From Candidatus Polarisedimenticola svalbardensis (GTDB lineage: Bacteria > Acidobacteriota > Polarisedimenticolia > Polarisedimenticolales > Polarisedimenticolaceae): a stretch of 64,000 nt of DNA. Below the pieces are notes generated by a model that saw only the letters and a list, made by a program, of their open reading frames with translations, was not told the DNA's origin and searched no databases. Position numbers and translations under genes: made by a program. This document shows positions 1-43,614 of the stretch, one piece after another. Each line of letters opens with the position of its first letter. Position 1 is the first letter of the stretch. The stretch covers positions 1 to 64,000 of the forward strand of contig JACXWD010000018.1 of NCBI GenBank assembly GCA_014764515.1. Direction: 5' to 3'.

Positions 1-594
1 CGCAATCAACAAAACGAAAGCACCGCCGAACAGCCAGGCCTTGCCCCCGACCCCATCCCTACTTCGCGCATTCAGGTACAAACCGAAGGCCAGCAGGCAG
101 AAAAGGGTAGCCATGGAAGTCATCCGCTGGACGATATAGGTAACGGCCTGGACCCCCAAAGGGTGGAGTACGAAAACCCCGACCACCACCAGGCTGATCT
201 GTGTCGCCTGAAGCCCGCCTGCGCATCGAGTATGCCGGCGGATATACGATCGGCATACCCAGAACAGAGCGCACCCTACCATGATGTGAACGATCCAGTT
301 CAGATAATGATATCCAGGCGTTTCAAGCTCATGCAGCAGATAATTCAAGCCAAAAGTCAAATTCGCAAGAAACCGAGGGCGGAGATAACCCTCCGTCCAG
401 GTTCGCGCTACATTACGCCAACTGAGTTCTGTCCAGTGAACCGCGTCGTTCGCAACAATGTTTTGGACATCATCGAAATACATTCCACCGGAAAACCCGG
501 GGCGATAAGCCAGCCAGGCGATCAACACGAGACTCAATCCCAGCATCAGGGTCAAGATTTTTAAAACAGCCCTGTCGGCTGATTTTTCCGACAT
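1..594 (-). CDS. GT-C/TMTC-like membrane glycosyltransferase, N-terminal part (cut by left edge)
   Basis: The frame is open from an ATG at 592-594 down to base 1 (198 codons) and runs off the window. The protein starts with a cytoplasmic tail and one membrane segment. A loop follows with an acidic FDD-x3-I motif (MYFDDVQNIV), as in GT-C enzymes that use polyprenyl-phosphate sugars. Further hydrophobic segments follow, with a YIVQRMTSMATLF stretch. That stretch nearly matches SYIVQRMTSLAALF in the gene at 14537-16438, so the two are paralogues; TPRs are expected in the missing C-terminus. A GGGAGAGGATAGG stretch precedes the start. It is divergent from hypF. The family call is firm; the substrate is unknown. 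Confidence 0.8.
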   Translation of the reverse strand, partial: MSEKSADRAVLKILTLMLGLSLVLIAWLAYRPGFSGGMYFDDVQNIVANDAVHWTELSWRNVARTWTEGYLRPRFLANLTFGLNYLLHELETPGYHYLNWIVHIMVGCALFWVCRSYIRRHTRCAGGLQATQISLVVVGVFVLHPLGVQAVTYIVQRMTSMATLFCLLAFGLYLNARSRDGVGGKAWLFGGAFVLLIA

Positions 595-758
595 CCTCGC
601 CTATCCTCTCCCATGCCAGGATCTAGATCCGGAGCGCTGGAACCAGTGCAACCGGAGCCCCCTGTTCACCGGCTTGCTCAGGTTGACTTCCCCCCCGTGC
701 CCGGATTCGTTTTACAATGCTGCATTGTGACGACAAATTGCAAAAACACAAGCGCAAC

Positions 759-3041
<2,283 letters not shown>

Positions 3042-3093
3042 GATTTTCTCTTCATGCTGAATCACCTCCCAGTGGGCCGGGATAGTCCTGAAT

Positions 3094-3151
3094 TTTGGAC
3101 CTAGATGGTGCGGTTGAGGCCGGGGCGGGTCCAAATGCTGCGGGCTATAAT
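3094..3151 (+). promoter_or_regulatory. Candidate promoter with upstream inverted repeat for the 21-haem cytochrome locus
   Basis: A perfect TATAAT lies at 3146-3151, about 39 bases before the GTG at 3190. No good -35 hexamer sits 16-18 bases upstream. An 8-bp inverted repeat, TTTGGACC (3094-3101) and GGTCCAAA (3128-3135), has its right arm 10 bases before the -10, where an activator or repressor could bind. Seen only as sequence; function is inferred. Confidence 0.35.
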
Positions 3152-3189
3152 GACGATTCTCGAAAAACCTTTGGACGGAGGGCTTTGGG

Positions 3190-4971
3190 GTGACCAGTTT
3201 GTACAGGAAACACCTGTGGCCCGGACTCTGTATTTTCGGAATCCTGGCAGCCGGAGTGACCGTCATCCTTGGAGCCGGCGGCTCCACCGACTCCCATCCG
3301 ACCCTGGTACAGGTTACCCAGGAAGCCTGCACTTCCTGCCACGAGGACCTGCTGCTTGACCAGCCGGTCATCCATCCCCCGGTAGCCGACGACTGCACCT
3401 CCTGCCACGAGGTGGAAAAGAGCGAAAGCGGCACCTCCATAACTTTGATGGCTCCCGAACCGGACCTGTGTATCGCCTGCCATGACGGACTGGAAGCGGC
3501 GGTTTCCGGCGATCTGGCCACACCCCACCCGGCAGTGATGGACTCGTGCCTGTCCTGCCACAACGTCCATGCCGGCAAGCACGAGAAGCTGCTGGTGGAA
3601 CCGAAGGAATCGCTCTGCACGACCTGCCACGACCGGGCCGAACTGCAGGTCATCCACAAGGACCAGCTGCACGAGGCGGTGGATTGCACCAGCTGCCACC
3701 TCCCCCACGGTGGGGAGAACCCACGGATGCTGGCCGGGAAAAACGCCCACGTTCCGTTCGGTGAGGGATCGTGCAATGCATGCCACCGGAAACCGTTCGG
3801 GCCGAGGGTACGGCTGCGGGCGCCGGGGAACCGGCTCTGCGTCTCCTGTCATGGGGAATTCGAGGTTCCGGAAGGCGGCACGGAACATGCCGCACTGGAT
3901 GAAGTCAAGCGCCGTGCCGGCTGCCTGCAATGCCACGACCCGCACATGAGCAATTACGCCAGTCTAACCCTTCGCGAGGGTCCGGCATTGTGCTCAGCCT
4001 GTCACGGCACGGTTTCCGAATCGGCCACCGGCGAGGGCGGGCATCCTCCCGCCTCGGAAGATTGCCTCAATTGCCATCAACCTCACGTGGCCGACCAGTC
4101 AAAACTGCTCGTTGCGCCGCGGGAGGAGCTCTGCCAGGCCTGTCACGACATCGACGATGAAGACCTCCGCACCAGGCACCTAGGCGCCAACCTGGCCGGC
4201 CTGGACTGCACCACCTGTCACACGCCCCACGGCAGCGAAAGCGGCGCTCTCCTCGCGAAGACGATCCACCCCCCGATCCTGGACGGTTGCGACACATGCC
4301 ACGAAGACAACTCCATGCACCTGATGGACAATGGAGAATCGTCGCTTTGCCTGATGTGCCACGACGACATCGGCGAGACGGCGGAAGCAGCCACCGTACC
4401 TCATCCCGCCATGGAGATGATCCGCTGCGCCGACTGCCACAACCCCCATGCGTCGGCGCAGGAGAAACTGGTCAAAGCTCCCGGCAACGGGGTATGCGTT
4501 GCCTGCCATGACGACAAGGCGCCGGCCGGCGATGAAGTGGCTCACCGCGTGATCGACGAATGGGGTTGCCAAACATGCCACCTGCCCCACGGTGGAGAGA
4601 ATCGCGCCATGCTCCGGGCTGAAGGGGATCAGCTCTGCCGGTCATGCCATGACCGCACCTACGTCCGGTCGTTCCAATCGGAAGGGATAGTAACCCTCCT
4701 GGACCGATTTCAGGTTTCGATCGAACGCGCCTACCAGATGGCCACGCTGCAACTGAAGCGTGACGGCACTTTCGGACACCCGGAGGTGACCCATCGCACT
4801 GCCGGCAAACCGAGCGAGGAGCAATTCAACAAGAAAGGCTTCAATACGATTTTCCAAGGCGAACTGTCCTGTCTGACCTGTCACGATCCCCACAAGGGTC
4901 GATCCTCGAAACTGTTTCGCTGGAACGCAACCACCGTGTCCCAAGCCTGCAACCAATGTCATCCACGCTAA
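3190..4971 (+). CDS. 21-haem c-type cytochrome (doubled-CXXCH repeats)
   Basis: GTG start with GGAGGG seven bases upstream. A short N-terminal hydrophobic segment (about residues 11-29) is a signal peptide or anchor. By hand count there are 21 CXXCH haem motifs in 593 residues, spread over the whole chain from about residue 47 to the C-terminus, many in the CXXCHxPH or CXXCHDPH form of the doubled-CXXCH family. An internal repeat shows as two CHLPHGGEN blocks near residues 168 and 460. A 65-residue haem-free stretch precedes the last two haems. It is probably periplasmic or outer-membrane-associated and passes electrons out of the cell. It is the first gene of a run continuing to 11619. No enzymatic domain is visible, so a conductor role is inferred. 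Confidence 0.92.
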   Translation: MTSLYRKHLWPGLCIFGILAAGVTVILGAGGSTDSHPTLVQVTQEACTSCHEDLLLDQPVIHPPVADDCTSCHEVEKSESGTSITLMAPEPDLCIACHDGLEAAVSGDLATPHPAVMDSCLSCHNVHAGKHEKLLVEPKESLCTTCHDRAELQVIHKDQLHEAVDCTSCHLPHGGENPRMLAGKNAHVPFGEGSCNACHRKPFGPRVRLRAPGNRLCVSCHGEFEVPEGGTEHAALDEVKRRAGCLQCHDPHMSNYASLTLREGPALCSACHGTVSESATGEGGHPPASEDCLNCHQPHVADQSKLLVAPREELCQACHDIDDEDLRTRHLGANLAGLDCTTCHTPHGSESGALLAKTIHPPILDGCDTCHEDNSMHLMDNGESSLCLMCHDDIGETAEAATVPHPAMEMIRCADCHNPHASAQEKLVKAPGNGVCVACHDDKAPAGDEVAHRVIDEWGCQTCHLPHGGENRAMLRAEGDQLCRSCHDRTYVRSFQSEGIVTLLDRFQVSIERAYQMATLQLKRDGTFGHPEVTHRTAGKPSEEQFNKKGFNTIFQGELSCLTCHDPHKGRSSKLFRWNATTVSQACNQCHPR

Positions 4972-4992
4972 GCCCGCCTCGAGAGGGTTCTC

Positions 4993-6051
4993 ATGAAACG
5001 ATCAAGAACAACGATACTCACCCTGGCCATCCTCTTCCTTGTCACGACACAAGCGCAGGGCCCAGCTCTGGCCGGGAAGAAAAAGAAAAATGATAACTCG
5101 GATCCTTATGCCGGCATCGTGTGGCCGCCACCACCGGACCAGGGCCGCATCAAACTGGATAAGATCATCACCCACCGGGCGGATGTGGTGGCCAAGTCCA
5201 AGTTCCGCCGGGCCCTGATGAAATCTTCCCCTAAAACCGTCTACGACGCACTGGACAAGCCGTTCGACGTAGCCATCGACAACCAGGACCGGATCCTGGT
5301 AACCGACTCCCGGAAGGGAGCCCTGATCAGATACGATTCCATCAACCGGGCGATGGACGTGTTCGGCACCCGAGGAGTAGTGAAGCTGCAATCACCGATG
5401 GGCATCGACATTACGCCGGACGGTCGGGTCCTGGTTGCAGACGCCATGCTCAGGCGAGTCGTCGTGTTCGATGATCAGGGAACGATCCTCAAACTTTACG
5501 GTAGCGAAGAGACCCTCAAGGGGCCGACCGACGCCGTCCTCAGTCCGGACGGGAAGCAGGTCTATGTGGCAGACGCCCAGGCGCACCGAATCGTGGTGTT
5601 CGATGCGACAAGCGGCGAGCAGGTCCGGTTCCTGGGGGGGCGGGGCAGCGGCGAAGGCGAGTTCCTCTACCCAACCTCCCTGGATCTCGACTCGGAAGGG
5701 AACCTGTACGTCGTGGACCAACTCAACGCCAGGATTCAGGTATTCAACCCGGACGGCAGCTACCTGGACCAGTTTGGGTCAGCTGGAAACGGCCTGGGGT
5801 ATTTCAGCCGGCCAAAAGATATCGTGGTGGATGAAGTCGATTTCATCTATGTTACTGATTTTACAACCAATTACTTCCAGATCTTCGACGTTGATTACTC
5901 CCTGCTGACCTTTGTTGGCATGCCTGGAACCGGCCCTGGACAGTTTCAGGGGATGCTGGGGATCGATGTCCGCGGGGACAGGATCGCCGTGGTGGACCAG
6001 TTGAACCGGCGGATACAACTGATGCGGTTCATCGTTTCCAAGGAGGAGTGA
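4993..6051 (+). CDS. Exported NHL-repeat six-bladed beta-propeller protein
   Basis: ATG preceded by GAGAGGG. An N-terminal signal peptide (about residues 1-27, ending QGPALA) is followed by a lysine/aspartate-rich linker and then NHL repeats of the form P-x-G-(I/L)-D-(V/I)-x3-G-x-(I/L)-x-V-x-D. About six are seen, including FDVAIDNQDRILVTD, MGIDITPDGRVLVAD and KDIVVDEVDFIYVTD. An early WPPPPDQGRI motif recurs in weaker form in the propeller lipoprotein at 8769. Such propellers usually mediate protein contacts and are often encoded beside multihaem cytochromes in metal reducers. It lies 21 bases after the 21-haem gene, so the two are probably co-transcribed. It may be a scaffold for the conduit; its ligand is unknown. 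Confidence 0.88.
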   Translation: MKRSRTTILTLAILFLVTTQAQGPALAGKKKKNDNSDPYAGIVWPPPPDQGRIKLDKIITHRADVVAKSKFRRALMKSSPKTVYDALDKPFDVAIDNQDRILVTDSRKGALIRYDSINRAMDVFGTRGVVKLQSPMGIDITPDGRVLVADAMLRRVVVFDDQGTILKLYGSEETLKGPTDAVLSPDGKQVYVADAQAHRIVVFDATSGEQVRFLGGRGSGEGEFLYPTSLDLDSEGNLYVVDQLNARIQVFNPDGSYLDQFGSAGNGLGYFSRPKDIVVDEVDFIYVTDFTTNYFQIFDVDYSLLTFVGMPGTGPGQFQGMLGIDVRGDRIAVVDQLNRRIQLMRFIVSKEE

Positions 6052-6130
6052 CCTCCCACGACACCTCCGTTCACAATGGCTCAAAAGAGTAAAATAGACC
6101 TTTATAGTCTATCCTTTTGCCCTTTTGCCG

Positions 6131-6159
6131 TTGTTGTTAAGAAAATACCCAAGTAAATT
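6131..6159 (+). promoter_or_regulatory. Candidate sigma-70 promoter for the small tetrahaem cytochrome
   Basis: TTGTTG (6131-6136), a 17-base spacer and TAAATT (6154-6159) fit the -35/-10 spacing. They lie in a 172-base AT-rich gap between 6051 and 6224. A weak 6-bp hairpin (6094-6112) upstream could end the previous unit. Confidence 0.4.
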
Positions 6160-6223
6160 GTACGGCGTGAAAAGGCTTTAATTACATGTCCACGATTTGC
6201 CCTGTGAGACTTGGAGGAAAATC

Positions 6224-6829
6224 ATGAAACGGCTTCTCATCATTAGCGCAGTGGTTATGCTGGCGAGTTCGATCAGTATGGCTGCCATCCTAGACTCTGC
6301 CCATGATCTGTCGACAGGCACGACCGGAATCGGAAGTGAAATCTGCGTGTTCTGTCACACGCCTCACCAGGCTCAGGCCGTGTCCCCGCTGTGGAACCAC
6401 ACGCTGAGCTCCGCGACTTATGTTATGTACGGCTCGGGCAGCACGACGCTGCAGAACGCGCCGACCATATTCGATGGTGGCGACAATGTGATCTCGGCGC
6501 TCTGCCTGTCATGTCATGACGGCACCGTCGCCGTGGGGAGCATCGCTCACAACTACGACAACACCGCCGGCGCCAACCTGAACGGTTACGGTGTGATCAC
6601 CGGGGACGGCAACGTCGGCACCAACCTGGCCAACGACCATCCGATCAACATGACCTACGGCGGCACCGGCATCGGCCTCAATGATGCGACCACCATCACC
6701 TCGGTGCTGTATGGCGATACGGTGCAGTGCGCCTCCTGCCACGAAGTTCACAACGAAAGCGCTAACGGATTCCTGCTGCGCGTTGCGAACACCAACAGCG
6801 ATCTCTGCACGGACTGTCACAACAAGTAA
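6224..6829 (+). CDS. Small tetrahaem c-type cytochrome
   Basis: Start ATG at 6224 has GGAGG at a good distance and opens a clean signal peptide (about 21 residues ending SMAA). The 201-residue protein has four CXXCH motifs: CVFCHTPH near the mature N-terminus, CLSCHDGTVAVG mid-chain, CASCHEVH, and CTDCH four residues from the C-terminus. The chain between them is rich in Gly, Asn and Thr. This layout is shared with the cytochrome at 9776, so they are paralogues. The gene has its own candidate promoter and a strong terminator just downstream, suggesting high and separate expression. Size and haem number match tetrahaem extracellular cytochromes such as OmcE-type filament subunits, but polymerisation is only a hypothesis. 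Confidence 0.92.
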   Translation: MKRLLIISAVVMLASSISMAAILDSAHDLSTGTTGIGSEICVFCHTPHQAQAVSPLWNHTLSSATYVMYGSGSTTLQNAPTIFDGGDNVISALCLSCHDGTVAVGSIAHNYDNTAGANLNGYGVITGDGNVGTNLANDHPINMTYGGTGIGLNDATTITSVLYGDTVQCASCHEVHNESANGFLLRVANTNSDLCTDCHNK

Positions 6830-6905
6830 TGCTGCATTGCCGGTCGAACGGAGCCTGACGGATTACCGGCGTCAGGACCATCGTCCGAATCGCAACATGG
6901 AACTG

Positions 6906-6941
6906 GCCCCCGTTTCGATTTTTTTCGAACGGGGGCTTTTT
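6906..6941 (+). terminator. Rho-independent terminator after the tetrahaem cytochrome
   Basis: GCCCCCGTTtCGA (6906-6918) pairs with TCGAACGGGGGC (6925-6936) with one bulged T, and a run of five Ts follows. It ends about 23 bases before the next start codon (6964), leaving little room for a separate promoter. Confidence 0.85.
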
Positions 6942-6963
6942 CATGATAGCTTGATGAGCCACG

Positions 6964-8772
6964 ATGAAAGTGATCCTGCGCCTACATTTTCGGGCATCAG
7001 TAGTACTGCTGGGTCTGTTGATGGCCTTTCCCGCTGCCGCCGCCGGAACCGGGGGGCGTTGGTGGTGGGACGCCCAGTTGCGAGCGCAGCAGGAATCCCG
7101 GCAATTCTACCGAGGAGATACCCAGACCCGGGACTACAAGATCCTGCGATACGGCCTGGGCTTGGGTATCAACGGCTACATCTACCACCCGGCCATCGCC
7201 AGCTTCCGGGTTGAACTGGATTTTCTGGCAACCCAGTACAGCGCTGCAGGGCGGAGGAAACAGGACAACACCGGGCTCGGCGTCGAGTTCAACCTCGTGC
7301 CCAACGGTCGCTACCCGTTCACAGTGCGATACAAGGAGTATCTTTTCGACCTCGGGGTGCGCACTGGAGGCGACCAGCCGATCTGGGTGTACGACACAGG
7401 TACGGTCTGGAGCGCAAACTGGGCGGCACGCGCCGGCCCGCTCCGCGGTCTAAGATACAACACGTCCAACTCGGCCTATCGCTTTCTGGACGAAGACCTT
7501 GGGAGAGACGTCCGGTCCAGGGACCGTGTGTCATGGAACCGGTTGTTCGGCCGTCTGAAGCACCGCCTGCAACTTGAGAACCGAGTCCGGGACAGTGCCC
7601 GCTCGTTACTGACCACGGAAGACCTGGTCCTGCGCCTGACCGAGCAACTCGACCTCTCGGACCGCTGGCGGTGGAACCTGCATGGGAACGGGCGGATCAA
7701 CGATTCCACGATCGCGCTCCAGCCGTTCCCCAGCCAGCGGCGCTACAGCCTGCGCAACCAGTTTCAGCGGACCGATCCGAAATACTCTATCAGCCTGGAG
7801 AGTACCGCGGAGACGGTGAGGGAAGACCACGATGGCAGATTGTCGGCATACTCGGGCGCGGTCCGCCATACCCGGAGGATCAGCGATGATCTCAGCTTGA
7901 CCGGATCGTTCTCCTACCGAACGGTGCAAGGTGACGATTTCTCGTCGCATGGACCAAACCTGTCTGCGAGGGGTTCATGGCGAGGCCGGGCAGGGAGTTT
8001 CCAGAGCAGCCTGGACCTCTCGGCAGACTATACCGTGGCGGTCGCCGAGCGGGATACGATGAACACCAAGCTGGACCAGTTCGGCTACAGCGGGATCCTG
8101 AAAATGAGGCACTTGCCGGCAGGCGGCAGCTCCAAGGAGCTGACCATCGAGCAGACCAAGAACGATTTTCAGGAGATCTTCGACACCGGCCCCAACCTGC
8201 CGGGGCCGGGGTTCCTCACGCCTGAGCTCAGAACTTTCGACGTGTTCCGGACCGAATTCTCCCTGGGCAAGCAACTGGATCGCCGCCGTGTGCAACTGAA
8301 TACCGACTACACGCGCAGAATCTCCACCGATAGTGCCCTCACCGGCCTGCCCTGGCAGCGGGATAACGTCGTTTCATTGAGGGCCAACGTGACTCAGGGG
8401 GCCCTGAATTTCAGGCTGTCCAGCAGGTGGCAGGATCAGACGCTTAACAGCACTCTTGGTGATCGCCATTTCAATGAAACCCAGGCCAGGGTCCAGTGGC
8501 GGCCCCGTATCCGGATGTCCCTGAACGGGTCCTACCAGCAACAGACCCGGGACAGCCTCAGCAGCGCCCGATTTGTGACTGACAGTTATGAAGCAGGGTT
8601 TTCGTGGAGCGTTTTCGTCCTCGATTTCAACATCGTTGCCTACGAAGCTCGGGGATCGTCTTTCGGGGCCGAAGACTACCTGGACCGCGGCGTGCGCTGG
8701 ACCCTGTCCTCAAGGATGGCAGGGTGGCTACCGGTGGTGACCGGGCACCGGGGCAACGGGGTGATCCGGTGA
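6964..8772 (+). CDS. Large outer-membrane beta-barrel (porin-like conduit component)
   Basis: A signal peptide (about residues 1-27, hydrophobic core VVLLGLLMAF, ending AAAAG) leads into a chain dominated by alternating polar/aromatic strands of 9-12 residues separated by short turns and longer charged loops. This is the pattern of a large transmembrane barrel, with room for 20 or more strands in the 602 residues. There are no CXXCH motifs and no recognisable plug domain. Its place among multihaem cytochromes and propeller proteins suggests it is the pore through which a cytochrome crosses the outer membrane, as in porin-cytochrome conduits. The sequence is not close enough to a known OmbB/MtrB for me to name it. 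The next gene overlaps by 4 bases (GTGA). Confidence 0.8.
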   Translation: MKVILRLHFRASVVLLGLLMAFPAAAAGTGGRWWWDAQLRAQQESRQFYRGDTQTRDYKILRYGLGLGINGYIYHPAIASFRVELDFLATQYSAAGRRKQDNTGLGVEFNLVPNGRYPFTVRYKEYLFDLGVRTGGDQPIWVYDTGTVWSANWAARAGPLRGLRYNTSNSAYRFLDEDLGRDVRSRDRVSWNRLFGRLKHRLQLENRVRDSARSLLTTEDLVLRLTEQLDLSDRWRWNLHGNGRINDSTIALQPFPSQRRYSLRNQFQRTDPKYSISLESTAETVREDHDGRLSAYSGAVRHTRRISDDLSLTGSFSYRTVQGDDFSSHGPNLSARGSWRGRAGSFQSSLDLSADYTVAVAERDTMNTKLDQFGYSGILKMRHLPAGGSSKELTIEQTKNDFQEIFDTGPNLPGPGFLTPELRTFDVFRTEFSLGKQLDRRRVQLNTDYTRRISTDSALTGLPWQRDNVVSLRANVTQGALNFRLSSRWQDQTLNSTLGDRHFNETQARVQWRPRIRMSLNGSYQQQTRDSLSSARFVTDSYEAGFSWSVFVLDFNIVAYEARGSSFGAEDYLDRGVRWTLSSRMAGWLPVVTGHRGNGVIR

Positions 8773-9779
8773 GTATTCCCACCGGTGCCTGGGGACGCAA
8801 CTGCACGGTAGCGCTGCTGCTGGTCATCGTGGGCTGCGCCCCCATGCCACGAGTGATGGTGCCCTACGACTCACCTCACCAATGGCCGGCTGATCGTCCA
8901 CAGATCCGGCTCGAAGGCACCATTACCCTGAACCGCCTGTACCGGTCGGAACAGTGGTTCTTCTTCCAGAACACTGCACAGACGTCTGCTCCCGATGCCG
9001 AGTACCTCAGACCATACGGGATTACATTTGCCGCAGACGACATCGTGATCGCCGACCCGGATCGCAGTCGCGTGTCCAGGATCGCGCCGGACGGCAAGAG
9101 CACTTTTTCGCCGCCGGACCTGTTCCTCGTTCCGATCGAAGTAGCAGTTTGCAACGGCGGAATAGCCGTAGCCGATGCGGAGGCGGGCACCGTCACCGTG
9201 CTTGACGACTCCCTCCAGCATGTAGTGCGCGAGGAAGCCGGGTTTGAAAGACCGACCGGGCTGGCCTGCCTGGGCGGGAGAATTTATGTCGCCGAGACCA
9301 CCGGCCACCGCATAACCGTCATCGAGGACGACGGGACAAGGTGGTCCACCGGTTCCCGTGGAGACGGCCCGGGCCTGTTCAATTACCCGACCATGATGTC
9401 GATCCTGCCGCGAGACAACGAACTGGCGATTATCGACTCCATGAATTTTCGTGTCCAGGTGCTTGATCTTACGACTCTTGCACATCACCGCTCTTTCGGA
9501 GGTCTCGGCGATGCGCCGGGAGACATGCCTCGTCCCAAAGGTCTCGCTTTGGACAGCCGCGGGGACCTCTGGATCACGGATGCGTATCTCGACCAGGTTT
9601 CCGTGTACTCCACCGATGGCGCCTATCTCATCAGCATCGGGGTGTCCGGCTCGGACCTGTTCAATTTTCCCGCAGGCGCGGCTTCCCACCCTGATGGTAG
9701 AATTGTGATTGTCGATTCGCTGAGCCGAAGATTGCATGTATTCCGCCGTTTGCCTCAACCGACAGGTAGTGATCGATGA
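8769..9779 (+). CDS. NHL-type beta-propeller lipoprotein
   Basis: The chosen GTG at 8769 overlaps the barrel stop (GTGA) and gives a compact lipoprotein signal with lipobox LVIVGC near residue 21; longer upstream starts would bury this signal. The mature protein carries a QWPADRPQIRL motif, similar to the N-terminal motif of the propeller at 4993. About six NHL-like blades follow, for example GITFAADDIVIADPDRSR, TGLACLGGRIYVAETTGHR and KGLALDSRGDLWITD. It is probably anchored in the outer membrane as a scaffold or cap for the conduit. Its stop overlaps the next ATG (ATGA), so translation is coupled to the downstream cytochrome. Confidence 0.85.
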   Translation: MSIPTGAWGRNCTVALLLVIVGCAPMPRVMVPYDSPHQWPADRPQIRLEGTITLNRLYRSEQWFFFQNTAQTSAPDAEYLRPYGITFAADDIVIADPDRSRVSRIAPDGKSTFSPPDLFLVPIEVAVCNGGIAVADAEAGTVTVLDDSLQHVVREEAGFERPTGLACLGGRIYVAETTGHRITVIEDDGTRWSTGSRGDGPGLFNYPTMMSILPRDNELAIIDSMNFRVQVLDLTTLAHHRSFGGLGDAPGDMPRPKGLALDSRGDLWITDAYLDQVSVYSTDGAYLISIGVSGSDLFNFPAGAASHPDGRIVIVDSLSRRLHVFRRLPQPTGSDR

Positions 9780-10480
9780 TGAAGCTCGCACCCCGATTAC
9801 CCCTGCGCCGGAGGTTCCTCCAGGGGATCGCCTGGTCCCTGGTGACCTGTGCCATCGCTCTGGGGCAGGGATCGGACATCGCGAACACCCCCCACAACCT
9901 GTCAGCAAGCGGCCCGGGATCGATCAAGGCAACCTCGGAAACGGAAATCTGCAAATTCTGCCATGTGCCCCACAATAGCCGCAGCGCAGAGGCTCTCTGG
10001 GCCCAGCAGCTTTCCGAAGCGATCTACCGTACTCCTCCGATCCGGACCGGGGAGAGCCAGCTCCAGACTGCGCCACAACCGGGCGGCAGCTCACGCCTAT
10101 GCCTGTCGTGTCATGACGGGACTGTCGCGATGGGCGAGATCAGCGGCAGCAGGGGCAGGATCAGGATGGCCGGCCGGCAGAAATTCCAGCCAGGTGACCC
10201 GGGCTATCTGGGAACAGACCTCAGCGGCAGCCACCCCGTTTCGTTCGAGATCAGTGCCCGACCTATCGGTGCAGAGAGCCCGGCCATCGACATCGGGCTC
10301 CACGAGGTTTCCGCTATCATTTCCAACACCGTGGCTCCGCTTGATGCCAACAACAAAATGCAATGCACAACCTGTCACGACCCTCACAGTGACGCCTATT
10401 ACCGCCCCGGAATCGTCCCGAGATTCTGGGTTGCACCGACGGTCCAGGAAGTCTGCACGTCATGCCACGCACTACGCTAA
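9776..10480 (+). CDS. Small tetrahaem c-type cytochrome, paralogue of the 6224 protein
   Basis: An arginine-rich N-terminus (RLPLRRRFLQ) precedes the hydrophobic signal segment. The 234-residue protein holds four CXXCH motifs in the same order and contexts as the 6224 cytochrome: CKFCHVPH, CLSCHDGTVAMG, CTTCHDPH and CTSCH four residues from the end. An HNLSASGPG stretch before the first haem and a GYLGTDLSGSHPVSF stretch in the middle are typical of this cytochrome family. It overlaps the propeller lipoprotein by 4 bases and the next cytochrome by 19, so the three genes form one translationally coupled unit. Likely exported; partner or variant of the first tetrahaem protein. Confidence 0.92.
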   Translation: MMKLAPRLPLRRRFLQGIAWSLVTCAIALGQGSDIANTPHNLSASGPGSIKATSETEICKFCHVPHNSRSAEALWAQQLSEAIYRTPPIRTGESQLQTAPQPGGSSRLCLSCHDGTVAMGEISGSRGRIRMAGRQKFQPGDPGYLGTDLSGSHPVSFEISARPIGAESPAIDIGLHEVSAIISNTVAPLDANNKMQCTTCHDPHSDAYYRPGIVPRFWVAPTVQEVCTSCHALR

Positions 10481-11619
10481 AAACACTGATCGCCGGGTTC
10501 GGAGCCCTGCTGTTGTGGGGTTGGGCATGCGCGTCCGACCGTCATGTGGACCTCTCGTTTCTGCCACGAGGTTGCGCGAGTTGCCACCAGGGTCACGGGG
10601 AGAGCGGTTCGCCGATGCTTCCATCGGACCAGAAACAGCTCTGCCTCCGTTGCCATACAACCGAGGCGAACGTGCTGACCATGGTCCAGGCCGGCATCCT
10701 GTCCCAGGACGCCGACCCGCCACTATTGCAAGCGCAGTTTCTGAAAGGTTTTGTCCATCCGATCAGCGATGGAGCCTTCTCCGCCAACGAGCCGAATGCA
10801 GTCACCTGCACGTCCTGTCACTCGGCCCATCGCAGCCCTGTGTTCAGCCGCCAGGCACCTGGACTCACCGCCGGCAGGAAGCTCTCGCCTCGAGGCGAAG
10901 GCGCGCTGGAATACGATTTGTGCGAGAGTTGTCACGGGAGCCAGGGCGCAGCCACTACTGATGTGCTGGATATCAGCAGGCTGTTCGACCCGAACAACCG
11001 GTCTTACCATCCGGTCAAGGCACCGGCGGGGAGTTCCAGTCCATCGGTTGCCGACAGCATTGCGGGCCGGGAGATCAATTGCACCGATTGTCACGGCAGC
11101 GACGACCTGGCAGGGCCAAGCGGGCTGCACGGTTCCAATGTGAGATTTCTCCTGGTGCGATCCTATGAATCCCTGGACGGCACGGCGGAATCTTTGGAAG
11201 CGTACGCCCTCTGTTACAGCTGCCATGATCGCCAGATGATTCTCGACTCGCCGACCTTCCCCCTGCACCGCCTGCATGTCGAGGATCGGCAGGCCTCCTG
11301 TTCAACCTGCCATGACCCGCACGGTTCCCCTGATCAACGGTCTCTGATGAGGATCAGTCAGGACGCACGGCGGTCGGAGATCACCCCCTCCGCATCCACA
11401 GGGATCCTGGCGTTCGAATCCGAGTTTGAAGGAACCGGCCTGTGTTACCTGACTTGCCATGGCGTTGATCACGCACCAGAGGCATACGGCCCGGGCTCCG
11501 AGACCCTGGCTCTCGAATTCGAGATCCCTCAAGCGAGCGAGGCGGATCGCTTCATCCCTTCCTCTCCGCCGGGCCGGGCACCCCGACCGGGCAGAAAATC
11601 CCGCCTCGATTCGGATTAA
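10462..11619 (+). CDS. Octahaem c-type cytochrome with one CX3CH site
   Basis: An N-terminal signal (TLIAGFGALLLWGWACAS) is followed by seven CXXCH motifs (CASCH, CLRCH, CTSCH, CESCH, CTDCH, CYSCH, CSTCH). An eighth motif has an extra residue, CYLTCH, at 11443-11460; the DNA reads cleanly in frame. The first haem is in a CASCHQGH context and the seventh in CSTCHDPHG. The last 55 residues are haem-free and basic/proline-rich. It overlaps the preceding cytochrome by 19 bases and is the last gene of the conduit locus; its stop overlaps the convergent glycosyltransferase by 4 bases. Probably periplasmic or outer-surface electron carrier. Whether CYLTCH binds haem is unproven. Confidence 0.9.
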   Translation: MPRTTLKTLIAGFGALLLWGWACASDRHVDLSFLPRGCASCHQGHGESGSPMLPSDQKQLCLRCHTTEANVLTMVQAGILSQDADPPLLQAQFLKGFVHPISDGAFSANEPNAVTCTSCHSAHRSPVFSRQAPGLTAGRKLSPRGEGALEYDLCESCHGSQGAATTDVLDISRLFDPNNRSYHPVKAPAGSSSPSVADSIAGREINCTDCHGSDDLAGPSGLHGSNVRFLLVRSYESLDGTAESLEAYALCYSCHDRQMILDSPTFPLHRLHVEDRQASCSTCHDPHGSPDQRSLMRISQDARRSEITPSASTGILAFESEFEGTGLCYLTCHGVDHAPEAYGPGSETLALEFEIPQASEADRFIPSSPPGRAPRPGRKSRLDSD

Positions 11620-12566
11620 TCTCCCAGATCATGCTTCCGGAGCAGGTACAGAATCCTTTCCTGGTTGACTCGCATTCGATCTAGCATGTCCGCCAGGAGC
11701 CCCAGGCCGACCAGCAGGATGCCGCAGACATTCAGCAACCCGCCGGCGAATCCGACCGCCTTGTAAGGAGAATAGCTTCCGGTGCGGAGGTAATGAACGA
11801 GGAGCCAGACGTCCAGCGCAGCCCCGAAAAGAAAAACACCTGACCCCAGGGTTCCGAAGAAACGGAACGGCCTGAAGTCCCGGACGGTGCGAACCAGGAT
11901 CTTTCCGGCGTTCATCGCATACCGCAGTATGCTGCCTGCCACTCGGGAGCGACGGTCACTGAAATAGCGTACTTTGACAGGAACTTCACAGATCGGAATG
12001 TTTTTGAACGCCAGGTCCAGGATGGTCTCCTGGGTGTAGGTAAATTTGCCGAACAGGTTGAGGTGCAACAGTGCTTCCCGGCTGTAGGCCCTGAATCCAC
12101 AGGACACGTCGCGCAGGGTCGTCCCTGACGCCGACCGCACCACCGCCGCGACCACCAGGTTGCCCCAGTACTTCACCTTCGACATGTTGGCGGGCCGTCC
12201 GGCAGGCCCAAACCGACAACCGGTGACCAACCCCGTCTGGCCGGCCAGCAACGGTGCGAGCAGAGCCGGGATTTCATCCGGGTCGAACTGGCCGTCGGCA
12301 TCGATGCTGACCAGGATATCTGCGCCCTGCTCCAATGCAACCTGATGCCCGGTTTGGAACGCACCTCCAACCCCTCGGTTCGTGGCATGACGGACGACGA
12401 TCGCACCTTCAGACCTGGCGGCATCTGCGGTGCCGTCTGTACTGCCATCATCAACCACCAGCACCGTAGGCGGCCCATAACCGCCAAGATCCTTTGGCAA
12501 CGAGTTGATAACCCGTGCGATGGATGCGGCTTCGTTCAGGGCGGGGATAAAAATCATGATTTTCAA
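11616..12566 (-). CDS. GT2 polyprenyl-phosphate glycosyltransferase (GtrB/DPM1-like)
   Basis: The N-terminal GT-A domain shows IPALNEAASIARVI, VVDDGSTDGT and the metal-binding SIDADGQFDPDEIP. It is followed by a CGFRAYS motif and two C-terminal membrane segments (about residues 238-300), the layout of enzymes that load a sugar onto undecaprenyl phosphate at the inner membrane. The product normally feeds GT-C enzymes, three of which are encoded nearby. A TTG at 12566 has GGTGGA upstream; an in-frame ATG at 12557 is an alternative. Convergent 4-base overlap with the octahaem cytochrome. The sugar is not identifiable. Confidence 0.9.
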   Translation of the reverse strand: MKIMIFIPALNEAASIARVINSLPKDLGGYGPPTVLVVDDGSTDGTADAARSEGAIVVRHATNRGVGGAFQTGHQVALEQGADILVSIDADGQFDPDEIPALLAPLLAGQTGLVTGCRFGPAGRPANMSKVKYWGNLVVAAVVRSASGTTLRDVSCGFRAYSREALLHLNLFGKFTYTQETILDLAFKNIPICEVPVKVRYFSDRRSRVAGSILRYAMNAGKILVRTVRDFRPFRFFGTLGSGVFLFGAALDVWLLVHYLRTGSYSPYKAVGFAGGLLNVCGILLVGLGLLADMLDRMRVNQERILYLLRKHDLGD

Positions 12567-25132: not shown

Positions 25133-25978
25133 TCAATCAACCCTCTCGCCCTCCTCGTACTGTTCACTACCGGTGAGATGGATGCGCATGTCCATGTCGA
25201 ATATATGGTATGTGCTCCAGACCGGGAACCAGACGATCCCCCGGTACGACACGACCAGCAGAACAAAAATCGTCAGGCACCATCCGGCCAGTTTCCGGCC
25301 ATCCCATTTAGCAAAAAGGTGCATGTGCAACAGGGTTCCGTAGGCGCACCAGGCGGCAAAGCCGAGGGTCTCGATCGGGTCGAACGACCATGCGACTCCG
25401 AACAGCAGGAACTTGTACAGGGAACCGGTGGCCAGCATCGCCGAGTGCAAGAGGAAGCCGGCGGTGAGGGTACCGGTCAGAGGGCGGGCCGGACCGGGGT
25501 TCCCCTTCCGAAGCAGCAGCCAAGCTGCGTAACCTGCATTGACCGCCAGCATCCCGAATGCGAACCAGGCGACGATCGCGTGGATGTCCACCACCCAGGA
25601 CCGTTCCGAGATGGTCAGGGCGTACGGGGTCGGGTCGTACAACCGGCCGTGGAACAGCACCGCCGCCGCTACCAGGCAGGCTCCCGGGGTGGCGGACGCG
25701 GGGATACGGTCCAGGAACCGGAACAGAGTGGGAATCAGAAGAACAGCTGCCGCGATTGACAGTGCACTCTCGAAGGTGCCGAAGATCGGCAAGTGGCCGG
25801 CCTCGATCCACCGGGCGATCCACAAGCCGAGTACGAACAACAGTGATAACCAGGCTGCGCCACCAGCCATTCGGGCCAGATGCGGCGCATTCGGCCGTCG
25901 CCAGGAAACAACCCCCAGGACACCGGCTAGGAGGGCAATGAATCCTGCGGCCAGCATCAATGCAGGCGTGACGTTCAC
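25133..25978 (-). CDS. ccsA: CcsA/ResC-like cytochrome c synthase subunit with divergent WWD motif
   Basis: A polytopic membrane protein of 281 residues with about eight hydrophobic segments. It shares with the second copy (27176) the WIEAGHLPIFGTFESAL region, VDIHAIVAWFAFG, and the site where CcsA carries its haem-binding WWD motif. Here that site reads FGVAWSFDPIETLGFAAWC: the W-x-x-D-P-x-E skeleton remains but the leading Trp-Gly and the second Trp are changed. In System II, CcsA with ResB moves haem out and attaches it to CXXCH. The divergent motif suggests altered substrate preference or a non-catalytic role. Overlaps the upstream ResB gene by 4 bases. Confidence 0.85.
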   Translation of the reverse strand: MNVTPALMLAAGFIALLAGVLGVVSWRRPNAPHLARMAGGAAWLSLLFVLGLWIARWIEAGHLPIFGTFESALSIAAAVLLIPTLFRFLDRIPASATPGACLVAAAVLFHGRLYDPTPYALTISERSWVVDIHAIVAWFAFGMLAVNAGYAAWLLLRKGNPGPARPLTGTLTAGFLLHSAMLATGSLYKFLLFGVAWSFDPIETLGFAAWCAYGTLLHMHLFAKWDGRKLAGWCLTIFVLLVVSYRGIVWFPVWSTYHIFDMDMRIHLTGSEQYEEGERVD

Positions 25979-27186
25979 AGGTCCTCCTCCAGTCCTGCCG
26001 GCATTTCACCCCAACCCAGGATCCGGGCCGGCTCCCCTTCCACCGCCAGCCTGAATACTACCTCGGAACGCTTACCCGGAAGGCGCAGCATCAGCCCGAT
26101 CAGGCCCAGGGCGAACCCGGCGAACAGCGGCAGGACCCCCGGGTCCCGAACCAGGGTGAACTCGCCCCAGTAGCGGATCTCGGCGATCCGGATGGTCAGC
26201 CCTTCGAAGTCGAATCCCTGGTTCGCGGATAACGAAGCCGTACCGAGGCTCAGATGGCCGCGATAGACCTCCAGGTCGATCACCGGCTCGTTCAGGTTCA
26301 GTGAACGGGTCACCAGCCGTCCGTCCTGCTCTTCCGGGTCGGGGATCACTGTCAAGTAGAAGCGGTGAGGATAGCCTTCGACCTGGAACCAGTCCCGCAA
26401 ACCGGGCGGGAACAGGTTCATCTTCACCCAGGCCGAATCCAAAATCTGGCCTTGTTTGTCCAGCAGTTCGTACCGGGGTACGTACCCGAACCCGGACAGC
26501 CGCAGGAACGAGGCCGGGCCGGTCATCACAGGCTTGTTGATCCGGGTGATCGACCGGCTGCCGTCTTCCCATCCCAGATCGGCCTCCAGCTGGGTGAACA
26601 GCAACTGGTCCTGCCAGAACTCAGGCGTGATCCGCCGGACCACGAATTCCGGTCCGGACCGGAAGATCTCACCCTCGGCGACCTGGAAGGTGGTCTCGTT
26701 GCGGCCGGCCAGCGTGAGCAGGAAAGCGGTGGCGATCAGGAAGAAGGAACCGTGGAACAGGTAGGTCCCCAGGGCCGACCAGCGGCCTCTGGAGCCGGTA
26801 AGTCCTGTATCAGGCCCATCCTGCCGGGCTTTGTATCCGGCCCGTTTCAGGTCGATTTCGACCATCTCCGGACCAACCGGTACGGTCCACTCCGGAGGAC
26901 GGTCGCAGAATGCCGATCGGGGCGACAGGTCATGTTTAAGGATCGCAAGGCGGCGCCAGAGACAGGTACCGGTGTTCACCAGGAGCAACAGGTACAACAG
27001 CCAGAACGGCATTAGAGAGGCGATGTTCCGGACCACGTGGGGCGGGGACGATGCGGCCCAGATCGCCAGCAGGAGGTAGTACAACACCGCCAGGACAATC
27101 AGGACGATGGACAGCTTCCAGGAACCGAGCCAGAGCCAGATGTCCTGGCGAAACCGCCTTACAGCGAACAGGGTCTTATCCAACAT
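25975..27186 (-). CDS. resB: ResB-like cytochrome c biogenesis protein
   Basis: 403 residues in the ResB layout: three N-terminal membrane segments (about residues 24-44, 57-75 and 138-160), a large beta-rich extracytoplasmic domain, and a final membrane segment (about 350-372). ResB works with CcsA/ResC in System II to hold the apocytochrome and haem during thioether formation. It overlaps the CcsA-like gene downstream by 4 bases and the second CcsA upstream by 11, so pairing with one or both is likely. It is clearly different in sequence from the ResB-like protein at 27988. Confidence 0.85.
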   Translation of the reverse strand: MLDKTLFAVRRFRQDIWLWLGSWKLSIVLIVLAVLYYLLLAIWAASSPPHVVRNIASLMPFWLLYLLLLVNTGTCLWRRLAILKHDLSPRSAFCDRPPEWTVPVGPEMVEIDLKRAGYKARQDGPDTGLTGSRGRWSALGTYLFHGSFFLIATAFLLTLAGRNETTFQVAEGEIFRSGPEFVVRRITPEFWQDQLLFTQLEADLGWEDGSRSITRINKPVMTGPASFLRLSGFGYVPRYELLDKQGQILDSAWVKMNLFPPGLRDWFQVEGYPHRFYLTVIPDPEEQDGRLVTRSLNLNEPVIDLEVYRGHLSLGTASLSANQGFDFEGLTIRIAEIRYWGEFTLVRDPGVLPLFAGFALGLIGLMLRLPGKRSEVVFRLAVEGEPARILGWGEMPAGLEEDL

Positions 27187-27991
27187 TGAAGACGTGCTCG
27201 CTCCCTTCCATGACCAGGTTCACGCCCCAGAACGAAACCAGAACGCCAATGATGGCGAAAACAAGCAGCCAGGCCAGCTTCCGTCCCCGCCAGCCCATGG
27301 TAATCCGGAGATGGAGCGCCAGGCCATAGATCAGCCAGGACAGCAGGGACCAGGTTTCCACCGGGTCCCAACTCCAGTACGAGCCCCACAGGTCCTTGGC
27401 CCAGATCGAGCCGGCGGCGATCATGATGGCGTCGGTGATGAACCCGAACACGGTGGATCGGAACATCAGTTCGTCCAGCCGGGCCAGGGCGCCGTCCGGG
27501 TCCTCTCCGCCGGATTTCTTCGAGCGGCTGAGGTACAGGATGCCGGCCCCACACGCCACGGTGTAGGCGCCATAGGCCAGCCAGGCGAAGAAGATGTGGA
27601 TGTACAGCCAGAACGACTGCAGGGCGGCCACCATCGGCTGTGCGGAGGTATCGGACATCGCCCCTCCGCCCATGATCACCAGGGCGAACGGCAATGCGCC
27701 GGCGGCCAGGAGCGGGTAACGCTTCTTCCAGCCGGCCCACAACGTCATGACGACGATGAACCAGCCACCTACCAGGGCGTTCTCGAAATTGCCGATGGTG
27801 GGGATATGGCCGGTTTCGACCCAGCGCCAGGCGAACAGCAGCGTGTGAGCGGCAAGACCGATGGCCACCAGCCTGAATCCCAGTCCGACTACCTTGTCCC
27901 GCTTGAATACCTGACCGTGGATCTGCAGGGCCACCGCCAGGGCGTAAACAACCAGTACAACCCAGAACAGGATGCCGAACAAGCTACTCAT
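27176..27991 (-). CDS. ccsA: CcsA/ResC-type cytochrome c synthase subunit, canonical WWD
   Basis: The ATG at 27991 follows GGAGG and overlaps the upstream ResB stop (ATGA); longer readings into that gene are non-membrane sequence. The 271-residue protein has about eight hydrophobic segments, ETGHIPTIGNFENAL near the first external histidine, and the full haem-handling motif LWGSYWSWDPVETW with a histidine after it (YGLALHLR). This is the standard System II haem lyase subunit that attaches haem to exported apocytochromes. With at least six multihaem cytochromes encoded nearby, heavy demand for it is expected. Confidence 0.93.
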   Translation of the reverse strand: MSSLFGILFWVVLVVYALAVALQIHGQVFKRDKVVGLGFRLVAIGLAAHTLLFAWRWVETGHIPTIGNFENALVGGWFIVVMTLWAGWKKRYPLLAAGALPFALVIMGGGAMSDTSAQPMVAALQSFWLYIHIFFAWLAYGAYTVACGAGILYLSRSKKSGGEDPDGALARLDELMFRSTVFGFITDAIMIAAGSIWAKDLWGSYWSWDPVETWSLLSWLIYGLALHLRITMGWRGRKLAWLLVFAIIGVLVSFWGVNLVMEGSEHVFNVG

Positions 27992-29343
27992 GACACCTCC
28001 TCCCCCTTCTCCGGGCCTGCGGCCAGGTAGTCCCGGATCGACCCCAGTTCTTCGTGGAAGCGTTGGCTGAAATATTCGCCCCGGCCAGTCAGTCGGAACT
28101 CGCTGGCATCCCACGACAGCGCCACCTCCCGACGGTACCACAGCAGTCTCCAGATCAGGCCAGTGATGCCCAGCACGAAGCCGGCTATCAGCAGGCCGCC
28201 TCCACGCTCGGCGATGACCTGAAACGCCACCCAGTAACGCAGTTCCTCCAGCACCAACCGACCACCGGACCATGAAGCAGCCTCGCCTGGGCGCAAGACG
28301 CCGCGAAACAGCTCCATTCCCTCGGAAACGATGCGCAGGCTCACCCCGGTGTCGGGCAGGTCGGCCAGTTCGGGGAACCGGGCGTCCGGCTCCAGCGGTT
28401 CGATTTCGATTGAGATCGCTCCGTCTCCGATCGGCGCCAGCGTGGGAGCCTTCCCCAGGGTGGCCGCCACCACTGAAACACGGTCCAGCGTAAAGCCGTC
28501 ACCGTCCTGCAACCAGAATACCGGCGCAAGCCCGGCGCGGTGCACCAGCAGCTTGGCGCTACCGACTGCAGCCGGCCGGTTGATCCACGACTCCCGGTCA
28601 ATCGCCCCTCCCCCGGTCATGAACCGGAAGACCGCTCCCAGTTGCAACGGGAAGCCGTCCTCGTAGAGCGGGACTACCTTTTGAAGCGCGAACCGAAGGT
28701 CCGGAGGCGGAAACAGCGGCGGCTCGCGCACCACCTGTTGGTATTCACCCTGAAACTGCTGGCCCTCCACCAGGATCACGTCGCCTACAAACCGGCTGTA
28801 GTACAGCAGCGCGCCGCCGGCGCAGATCAGGAAGAAACTAAAATGAAAGGCCAGGAAACCCAGGGGCGCCGTACGGTGCCGCACCGCCCAGACGGTCTTC
28901 TCGCCAACCTTCCGCACCTGGTACCCGAACCCCTTCAAGGTTTCAACGGCGTGGTCTGCGGACCAGACGGCAGGCAGTTCTCCCGAAAGACTTTCCTCCA
29001 TACCGGTCCAGGCCCTGAGGCCCGATTCGGCCCTCGGCTTGAGCCGTACACGGCGGATCGTCGGTCCGATCCGGCCGGCGATCACTACGCCAAGGTTCAG
29101 GAAGAACAGTCCCAGCGCCGCAAGAAACACAGGGCTGGTAGCCATATGCCCCAGGCCGAGATCGCCGAGAACGAAGCGGTAGACCGGGCCGGCCTGCCGA
29201 ATCAGCGCATCGAACGCTTCTTTCCCCAGGGTGCTCTCCTGCGGGAGGGCGACGTTCAAAAAGAGCAGGACGGCAAGGACCAGCAACAGGAAGATGGTGG
29301 TCTTCAAGGAGGCCAGGAAACGGAGTGGCTGGATCCGCGGCAT
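27988..29343 (-). CDS. resB: ResB-like cytochrome c biogenesis protein
   Basis: 451 residues: opening LASLKTTIFLLLVLAVLLFLN is the usual first ResB membrane segment. A second segment lies near residues 70-92, a third near 162-182, then a long extracytoplasmic domain and a last segment near 385-405. It starts 6 bases after the small gene at 29350 and overlaps the canonical ccsA by 4 bases, so it is the natural partner of that CcsA. Membrane-bound, with the large domain outside the cytoplasm. Confidence 0.9.
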   Translation of the reverse strand: MPRIQPLRFLASLKTTIFLLLVLAVLLFLNVALPQESTLGKEAFDALIRQAGPVYRFVLGDLGLGHMATSPVFLAALGLFFLNLGVVIAGRIGPTIRRVRLKPRAESGLRAWTGMEESLSGELPAVWSADHAVETLKGFGYQVRKVGEKTVWAVRHRTAPLGFLAFHFSFFLICAGGALLYYSRFVGDVILVEGQQFQGEYQQVVREPPLFPPPDLRFALQKVVPLYEDGFPLQLGAVFRFMTGGGAIDRESWINRPAAVGSAKLLVHRAGLAPVFWLQDGDGFTLDRVSVVAATLGKAPTLAPIGDGAISIEIEPLEPDARFPELADLPDTGVSLRIVSEGMELFRGVLRPGEAASWSGGRLVLEELRYWVAFQVIAERGGGLLIAGFVLGITGLIWRLLWYRREVALSWDASEFRLTGRGEYFSQRFHEELGSIRDYLAAGPEKGEEVS

Positions 29344-29349
29344 CGCTCC

Positions 29350-29877
29350 TTACTCCGTTTCAGACCGATGAAAGTCCCACCCGTAGATCCGCCATCCGGC
29401 GTTCTCCCGAATCATACGATATGTGGGGTACAGGATTACCGACCTGGGCGGATCCGACTCACCGCTGCCATCCACCCAGAACGTGCGATGGATCCAGAAC
29501 TCGCGGGTCCGGAGCTCCAGCCGGTTCTCTCCGGCAGGCAGGGCCGAAACGATCTCCAGCTTCTGCAGCCTCGGTTCCTGCACCCGCCGGTTCCTGGAAA
29601 GGTACTCAATGTCATCCCGGATCTCGGCGAGTATCTCGCCCGTCACCGGCATCCGCTCTGCGAACCGGGGGTCGCCGGCGCTGGTATACAAGTGGGACAT
29701 CAACGCCAGCGCATTCCGGAGCGTACTGGCCGCCGCCTCCTCCTTTACACCTGCAGCCTCGGCCCTCTCACCACCAGCGCCGAACCAGGCCGTGCTGAAA
29801 TAACTCCATTCCTGGACGATGGCCGCAGCGATGAACAGCACCAGACCGGCGATCAGGATCTTGAACAGGTTCTTCAC
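29350..29877 (-). CDS. Single-pass membrane protein of the cytochrome maturation block, unknown
   Basis: The chosen GTG at 29877 follows GGAGGCGGAG and overlaps the upstream stop (GTGA); it opens a clear membrane anchor (FKILIAGLVLFIAAAIV). The remaining 150 residues look soluble and extracytoplasmic, with an acidic helix and then beta-rich sequence ending in YGWDFHRSETE. No haem or cysteine motif. I do not recognise the family. Its position between two ResB-like genes with overlapping or near-overlapping ends argues for a part in the same complex. Confidence 0.78.
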   Translation of the reverse strand: MKNLFKILIAGLVLFIAAAIVQEWSYFSTAWFGAGGERAEAAGVKEEAAASTLRNALALMSHLYTSAGDPRFAERMPVTGEILAEIRDDIEYLSRNRRVQEPRLQKLEIVSALPAGENRLELRTREFWIHRTFWVDGSGESDPPRSVILYPTYRMIRENAGWRIYGWDFHRSETE

Positions 29878-30857
29878 CTCCGCCTCCACCTGGCCGCCTG
29901 CATCAGGATTCCGCCGAACAGCGCCAGAAAAGTTCCGGTCAAAACCGCCGGGCCGTAGCTGCGCCGCGAGACCACGATTTCCGACCACATCTTCAGGTCG
30001 GCGAAACCGATACGGTAGCCCTCGTCCAGTTCGGCAAAGTGGCCCGGGAGGAGGCTGCCGCTTCCCAGCAGCTTCGCACTGGACGACACCGTCAAATCCA
30101 GGGTGGCATGGCCCCGCAGGTTCTCGTCCAGGCTGTCCAGGCGTATCGTCCCTTCAACCCTGAGGTCCTGATCCTCCTTGGCGAAAGAGCCGCTGAACCG
30201 GATGCCGTCGGGACCGGACCGCTCGGTGAGGAAGGGAACGACCTGATCGAACACCGTCTCCTCGGTCTCTCCCGACCTCAGAATGACGATCCTGGGCGCG
30301 AACCCGAATGCGCCCTGGTAAAACCGGAGGGGGCCCGCTGCGCCATTGGTGCTGGGAGTGATCTCCAGCAGGGCCGGTTGCTCATGGCCTCTCCAGACCG
30401 TAATCCTGCTCACCGGCAGGAACGTATCTCCTTCCCGGGGAACCAGCTCCAGTTCCTCTAGACCTACAAGGACACCGATCTCTTCGATGTCGGCCAGTGG
30501 GCCGGGATCGAAAACCTGCAGCTCCGCTCCGTCCCGGAGTTGGGCCTTCTCCTGTTCGGCGAGGATGACATAACCTTGCAGGCCAAACAGCCAGTTGGCC
30601 AATCCCCCCGCAACGGCCAGGGCGATTCCGGCGGCCAGAACCATTCCGGCTCCTGCAGACAAGGATCTCTTTCGGCCGGTCAGGGCGAGAATCGCCAGTT
30701 GGACCAGGCGCGCCACGAACAGCAGGATCACCGTGGTCATGAGCACAGCCAAAACGATATGGGGATGGTGGAAGACGCCGGCCTTCAGCGCCGCCAGGTC
30801 CAGGACGGCCACAGCCAATGCCACCCATCGCAGGATTGTGAACCACTTTCTACCCAT
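29874..30857 (-). CDS. Third ResB-like membrane protein (short form)
   Basis: 327 residues with three N-terminal membrane segments (about residues 7-28, 33-60 and 70-92), a beta-rich external domain of about 195 residues and a final membrane segment (about 303-322). This is the ResB topology in a shorter chain, without close sequence match to the other two ResB-like proteins here. First gene of the maturation block, 17 bases past the terminator hairpin that follows the giant cytochrome. The assignment as ResB-like rests on topology and context; confidence in function is moderate. Confidence 0.75.
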   Translation of the reverse strand: MGRKWFTILRWVALAVAVLDLAALKAGVFHHPHIVLAVLMTTVILLFVARLVQLAILALTGRKRSLSAGAGMVLAAGIALAVAGGLANWLFGLQGYVILAEQEKAQLRDGAELQVFDPGPLADIEEIGVLVGLEELELVPREGDTFLPVSRITVWRGHEQPALLEITPSTNGAAGPLRFYQGAFGFAPRIVILRSGETEETVFDQVVPFLTERSGPDGIRFSGSFAKEDQDLRVEGTIRLDSLDENLRGHATLDLTVSSSAKLLGSGSLLPGHFAELDEGYRIGFADLKMWSEIVVSRRSYGPAVLTGTFLALFGGILMQAARWRRR

Positions 30858-43379: not shown

Positions 43380-43614
43380 ATCGAACCCCGATCCCTCCAG
43401 CCGCGACACCGGAGGCAACCCCATCGTTATTAATTATTCCGATTGAATATACCGCCGCGAACAGTGCCGATACACCTATCCAGGGCGACCCTATGGAGCG
43501 ATTTGCTCCACAATCAAAAGAGGGTTTCCGGAATCCACCCAACCCTGAGTTGACAAAGGTTCAAAACCGTATTCATTTGCCACGACAACCCGGAACTCCT
43601 TAAGATTGCCGCTC
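43380..43614. promoter_or_regulatory. Divergent control region between the second cytochrome operon and the flippase
   Basis: A 235-base gap between divergent genes. The minus-strand side has an AT-rich stretch with a TATATT (near 43446) that could be a -10. The plus-strand side has a perfect TTGACA at 43550-43555, but no convincing -10 at 16-18 bases. No operator is identified. Confidence 0.35.

Follow-up and report, generated by a model that had tools for sequence, protein, structure and literature searches.

The undecahaem electron transfer (Uet) pathway, which occurs in the Tenderiales and some Gallionellaceae, comprises the tetrahaem UetA, the isomerase UetB, the barrel UetC, the trihaems UetDEG, the NHL proteins UetH and UetI, and the undecahaem UetJ (PMC10734462). 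In Geobacter sulfurreducens, the osc (OmcS companion) operon is proposed to hold genes by which OmcS nanowires are folded, secreted and given their morphology (PMC13194489, PMC12977616). In Geoalkalibacter ferrihydriticus, a homologue of OmcE shares a locus with multihaem cytochromes and two NHL proteins (PMC12016550). The anchoring and charging of cytochrome nanowires are described as unresolved (PMC12307469). The locus analyzed here lies in a window of an Acidobacteriota genome, the window being the whole stretch of 64,000 nucleotides under analysis. Seven adjoining genes were called on the + strand at 3190-11619, with the features as follows.

3190..4971, + strand: cyt21, a 593-aa cytochrome with 21 CXXCH motifs (Pfam paired CXXCH)
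4993..6051, + strand: NHL1, a 352-aa NHL propeller with a signal sequence and without Cys (Pfam NHL, 6e-21)
6224..6829, + strand: tetra1, a 201-aa tetrahaem cytochrome of the OmcE type, putative filament subunit
6905..6941, + strand: terminator-like hairpin with a T-run, directly 3' of tetra1
6964..8772, + strand: outer-membrane barrel, 602 aa, 28 strands predicted by AlphaFold2
8769..9779, + strand: NHL2, an NHL propeller and probable lipoprotein (Pfam NHL, 5e-22)
9776..10480, + strand: tetra2, a 234-aa tetrahaem cytochrome corresponding to the N-terminal, OmcE-like half of an undecahaem-type cytochrome
10462..11619, + strand: octahaem, 385 aa with 7 CXXCH and 1 CX3CH, corresponding to the C-terminal half of an undecahaem-type cytochrome

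The seven genes encode 21, 0, 4, 0, 0, 4 and 7 CXXCH motifs, respectively, with one additional CX3CH in the last, while a shuffled sequence of 8.4 kb yielded at most one CXXCH per + frame, so the locus is real and chance is ruled out. Paired-CXXCH cytochromes and two NHL proteins were also confirmed by Pfam among the seven products. These gene calls bear out the seven same-strand genes reported in an earlier note on this DNA, whose label of octahaem for the last product is correct once the CX3CH is counted, and its general reading of an extracellular electron-transfer locus with a barrel, cytochromes and propellers is supported. However, its statement that most of the genes overlap by 4-19 bases holds for only three of the six junctions (barrel/NHL2, 4 bases; NHL2/tetra2, 4 bases; tetra2/octahaem, 19 bases), the remaining three being gaps of 21 (cyt21/NHL1), 172 (NHL1/tetra1) and 134 bases (tetra1/barrel).

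Other cytochrome genes were observed on the minus strand of the window. A predicted cytochrome of 2557 aa (30924-38597) carries 24 CXXCH and 4 CX4CH, with two long, near-identical direct repeats in the N-terminal third of its translation. At 38534-43424, a 372-aa cytochrome (4 CXXCH and 1 CX3CH) adjoins a protein of 1269 aa that contains Calx-beta and PKD-type domains; together they make up a second gene group for electron transfer, at a distance of 27 kb from the seven-gene locus. Several membrane proteins encoded at 25133-30857 resemble, in translation only, repeated cytochrome c assembly genes of the ResB/CcsA type.

The first tetrahaem cytochrome, listed in the earlier note simply as a tetrahaem, belongs by its match to PDB 7tfs to the OmcE family of nanowire proteins. 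The homology of tetra1 to OmcE extends over the full length (E 7.1e-34), as does the match to PDB 9yuq (E 8.5e-32), and the four CXXCH required of this cytochrome family are present. Besides the CXXCH histidines, H27, H48, H139 and H176 are invariant in 14 sequences, so four bis-His haems are possible in tetra1. In a tree of 157 rows, tetra1 groups with OmcE and 9yuq (support 98/97), apart from tetra2, and the same clade takes in all the rows labelled as stand-alone except four, namely three tetra2-type genes and one contig-truncated undecahaem, which distance and length rules had labelled wrongly. A strong ribosome site, GGAGGAAAATCATG, was found ahead of the gene. Judged from its sequence, tetra1 is an OmcE homologue and is likely to be the polymer of the locus, as the subunit of an OmcE-type nanowire.

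The gap between tetra1 and the barrel gene is the site of the terminator-like hairpin, which has a 14-bp stem with one mismatch and a T-run, and the folding of this gap (taken as 137 nt) gave z = -4.34. A comparable hairpin was found 3' of 41 of the 75 stand-alone OmcE-like genes, across phyla, against 3.6 of 75 when these downstream sequences were dinucleotide-shuffled, and the other genes carried it far less often (5/152 for NHL, 2/43 for barrel and 2/18 for tetra2-like genes), the counted loci being related to each other such that Fisher values overstate their independence. A consensus scan detected neither promoters nor terminators beyond the level of shuffles and did not pick up the hairpin after tetra1, which was detected by folding together with a laxer stem rule. 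The pattern fits partial termination leading to an excess of the subunit, as a polymer would need, and the scarcity of the hairpin after tetra2-like genes is expected if tetra2 is a stoichiometric part.

Tetra2 and octahaem had been considered separate cytochromes in the earlier note, but alignment to relatives identifies them as two halves of one cytochrome of the undecahaem type. In the relatives, the gene after NHL2 codes for a single cytochrome whose open frame spans ~560-660 aa and which bears 11 CXXCH motifs along with a conserved CX3CH, giving 12 sites, the first four of which align with tetra2 and the last eight with octahaem. All haem sites are conserved, and the CX3CH of octahaem is invariant in 44 aligned relatives. 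Tetra2 also matches OmcE (E 1.2e-19) and is placed in the 157-row tree with the undecahaem N-domains, and octahaem has its own start and its own signal sequence. Of 91 loci, 59 carry the undecahaem as one fused gene and 32 as two, the split form being observed in Desulfuromonadales, Nitrospirota, the window and three Acidobacteriota MAGs. Among the 41 genomes of the window's class that were examined, 11 contain the octahaem family, and the window's locus alone shows a clean split among the well-read loci. Since the halves form one chain elsewhere, tetra2 and octahaem very likely form a complex here, and such a complex would carry an OmcE-like domain distinct from the filament subunit. A search with the structure model of octahaem found no similar solved fold, so no trans-membrane argument is drawn from that model. 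A genome of the same genus (G001) harbors a fused undecahaem within a different gene complement (L033, 3963-11193), a hint that such loci were transferred laterally or lost differentially, and in the single-contig genome G037 the undecahaem is interrupted by an in-frame TAG (L044, 6403-9750).

No sequence match to the 602-aa barrel was obtained in Pfam, NCBIfam or PDB. The AlphaFold2 model with 28 strands, built on 28 homologues, reached a pLDDT of 78.8 and a pTM of 0.72, and its best solved match in the fold search was MtrB (6r2q_B, E 1.5e-8), a weak likeness (TM 0.42) with other large barrels close behind. Profile homology links the barrel to those of relatives at the same place (E 5e-8), and no relative turned up when genome contigs were scanned with the barrel by itself, owing to its fast evolution. 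Frames of 972 and 1054 aa in L041 and L043 were considered as barrel-NHL fusions and rejected, the extension being out of frame and R/P/G-rich in translation. NHL2 most plausibly starts at the GTG at 8769 and is a probable lipoprotein by its lipobox-like LVIVGC; across loci, the frequency of lipoboxes did not separate NHL1 (44/82) from NHL2 (35/72). Of 60 related genomes, 23 contain homologues of NHL1, which frequently lie in pairs 3.5-4 kb apart. Cyt21, whose GTG start is uncertain, scores above the NCBIfam cut-off for the DmsE family (TIGR03508, 197.3 vs 192.2 bits) and is likely a periplasmic electron wire.

The scan with the octahaem alignment recovered at least 526 relatives. In 33 of the 91 loci, a stand-alone OmcE-like gene is accompanied by a barrel, two NHL genes and an undecahaem, a count that covers the loci read, many of them on truncated contigs. 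The set is present in at least seven phyla, spanning Acidobacteriota, Planctomycetota, Desulfobacterota, Pseudomonadota, Verrucomicrobiota, Nitrospirota and Zixibacteria, and in Bacteroidota these genes are arranged differently. Culturable carriers of the set include Aromatoleum tolulyticum (L114) and Desulforhopalus sp. (L110). Two Acidobacteriota MAGs (L053 and L054) reproduce the window's seven-gene order exactly, including the 21-haem first gene, and a third (L052) differs solely in the 16 haems of its first gene. The earlier note had proposed a search for this gene order in other genomes and named a lack of conservation, along with a barrel that is a solute porin without a cytochrome docking surface, as what would refute its reading; as the order is conserved, the reading stands on that count. 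Nevertheless, the note had called the alternation with propellers unusual and perhaps a distinct conduit type, and this does not agree with an arrangement that recurs across phyla and already bears the name Uet (PMC10734462).

Several neighboring arrangements were encountered among the loci. In a Desulfuromonadales locus (L061, 2577-11002), clpX and lon are followed by genes for a PPIC isomerase, an NHL protein, a tetra2-type cytochrome and an octahaem, with neither an OmcE-like gene nor a barrel alongside, and the open frames of eight other Desulfuromonadales loci (L056, L058, L060, L064, L066, L076, L083 and L096) match it in size and order. In this group, tetra2 and octahaem may thus serve some purpose other than the filament, which weighs against the nanowire reading given below. 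A two-domain PPIC isomerase, an NHL protein, two hexahaem cytochromes and an octahaem-family protein stand in a row in L050 (G013, 3830-10504). The hexahaems were considered as relatives of OmcS, and the one tested matched neither OmcS nor another nanowire in PDB. A cousin arrangement in L040 (G049, 447-12250) has a first cytochrome of 38 haems, an NHL protein, a tetrahaem, a barrel and a free octahaem, and is broken by a large gene on the opposite strand.

The reading that we favor, with a probability of about 0.62, is that the locus specifies a cytochrome nanowire of the OmcE type, through which respiratory electrons may leave the cell, as well as the machinery for its export and its connection to the cell. 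Tetra1 would be made in excess and polymerize outside the cell, while the 21-haem protein would carry electrons across the periplasm. Octahaem would sit in or against the large barrel, and we infer its housing within the barrel, so that electrons would cross the outer membrane via octahaem. Tetra2, bound to octahaem, would present the docking face of the filament subunit and serve as the base for the tetra1 filament. At the barrel, the two NHL propellers, including the probable lipoprotein NHL2, might help in assembly or provide a cap. More tentatively, and with rather less than even odds in our estimation, tetra2 and octahaem (the undecahaem elsewhere) could be a dedicated nanowire base, with octahaem passing through the 28-strand barrel to span the outer membrane and tetra2 as a terminal, non-polymerizing unit that nucleates the OmcE-type wire.

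The fold match to MtrB and the DmsE-family score of cyt21 would also suit a classical porin-cytochrome conduit. In such a conduit, the barrel would sheathe either octahaem or cyt21, and both tetrahaems would be soluble or surface-bound terminal carriers that never polymerize; clusters of a porin and multihaem cytochromes in Verrucomicrobia have been proposed as such conduits (PMC5615132). However, tetra1 falls within the OmcE filament family, the hairpin that follows suggests that more of it is made than of the barrel, and the cluster has no terminal cytochrome of the MtrC/OmcA type, so we consider this explanation unlikely. Still less probable, in our view, is that the barrel, propellers and split undecahaem are a secretion system only, which exports and folds OmcE-type subunits while the wire is charged by another route, much as is proposed for parts of the osc operon. 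The role in folding, secretion and morphology ascribed to the osc genes (PMC13194489, PMC12977616) and the isomerases of related clusters accord with it, but a pure exporter would bear a high cost in the 33 haem sites of cyt21, tetra2 and octahaem, and every haem site is conserved. The fused form in G001 could further suggest that the split is merely a frameshift or assembly error in an ordinary fused-undecahaem locus. This we regard as having hardly any probability, given that octahaem possesses its own start and signal sequence and that three separate MAGs (L052, L053 and L054), with the same split and an identical 19-base tetra2/octahaem overlap, refute it.

If tetra2 and octahaem are indeed such a dedicated base, one conserved machine in many phyla would both export and charge the wire. 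The undecahaem family offers a concrete anchor candidate, whose outer domain is paralogous to the wire subunit and which is encoded beside a barrel and propellers, and it also links the named Uet pathway to OmcE nanowires. The split form makes the model directly testable, as the base and the membrane part can be separated by deletion or expression, and this testable model of nanowire anchoring is what the results suggest as their most useful point. The gene order also provides markers for spotting likely nanowire makers in metagenomes.

When compared with described systems, the locus resembles that of Geoalkalibacter ferrihydriticus in placing an OmcE homologue beside two NHL proteins; the latter locus was described in passing, and a split undecahaem is not among the features reported for it (PMC12016550). 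With MtrCAB, it shares a large barrel and multihaem cytochromes, the barrel having MtrB as its best fold match (TM 0.42) and cyt21 exceeding the cut-off of the DmsE-type family. However, the barrel has no sequence match to MtrB, none of the seven proteins gave an NCBIfam match above cut-off to a terminal decahaem of the OmcA/MtrC type, and the window's locus adds propellers and a filament subunit. Shen et al. in 2025 reportedly placed a prolyl isomerase and a beta-propeller protein among the accessory genes of osc, whose proteins are GSU2493-GSU2500. By the account of the papers that cite this work (PMC13194489, PMC12977616), the osc operon is alike in having accessory genes of similar working beside a nanowire cytochrome, with the difference that its subunit is the hexahaem OmcS and the window's locus has the tetrahaem OmcE family instead. 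To OmcE of Geobacter sulfurreducens (PDB 7tfs), tetra1 is similar in its full-length homology, its four haems and its four additional conserved His; OmcE forms a nanowire, and tetra1 would probably do likewise. By gene content, the Uet pathway shares with the locus the tetrahaem, the barrel and the two NHL proteins, whereas UetJ is one chain and its counterpart in the window is divided between two genes, tetra2 and octahaem. In addition, neither a peptidyl-prolyl isomerase (UetB) nor trihaems (UetDEG) are among the window's seven genes, which include a 21-haem cytochrome as an addition, while a locus from Ectothiorhodospiraceae (L101) has the Uet gene content with two trihaem genes. Owing to the absence of isomerase and trihaem genes from the cluster and to the split undecahaem, the locus is Uet-like and not a strict member. 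It is, overall, a variant of a widespread and partly named gene set that was known already, with one key part split in two.
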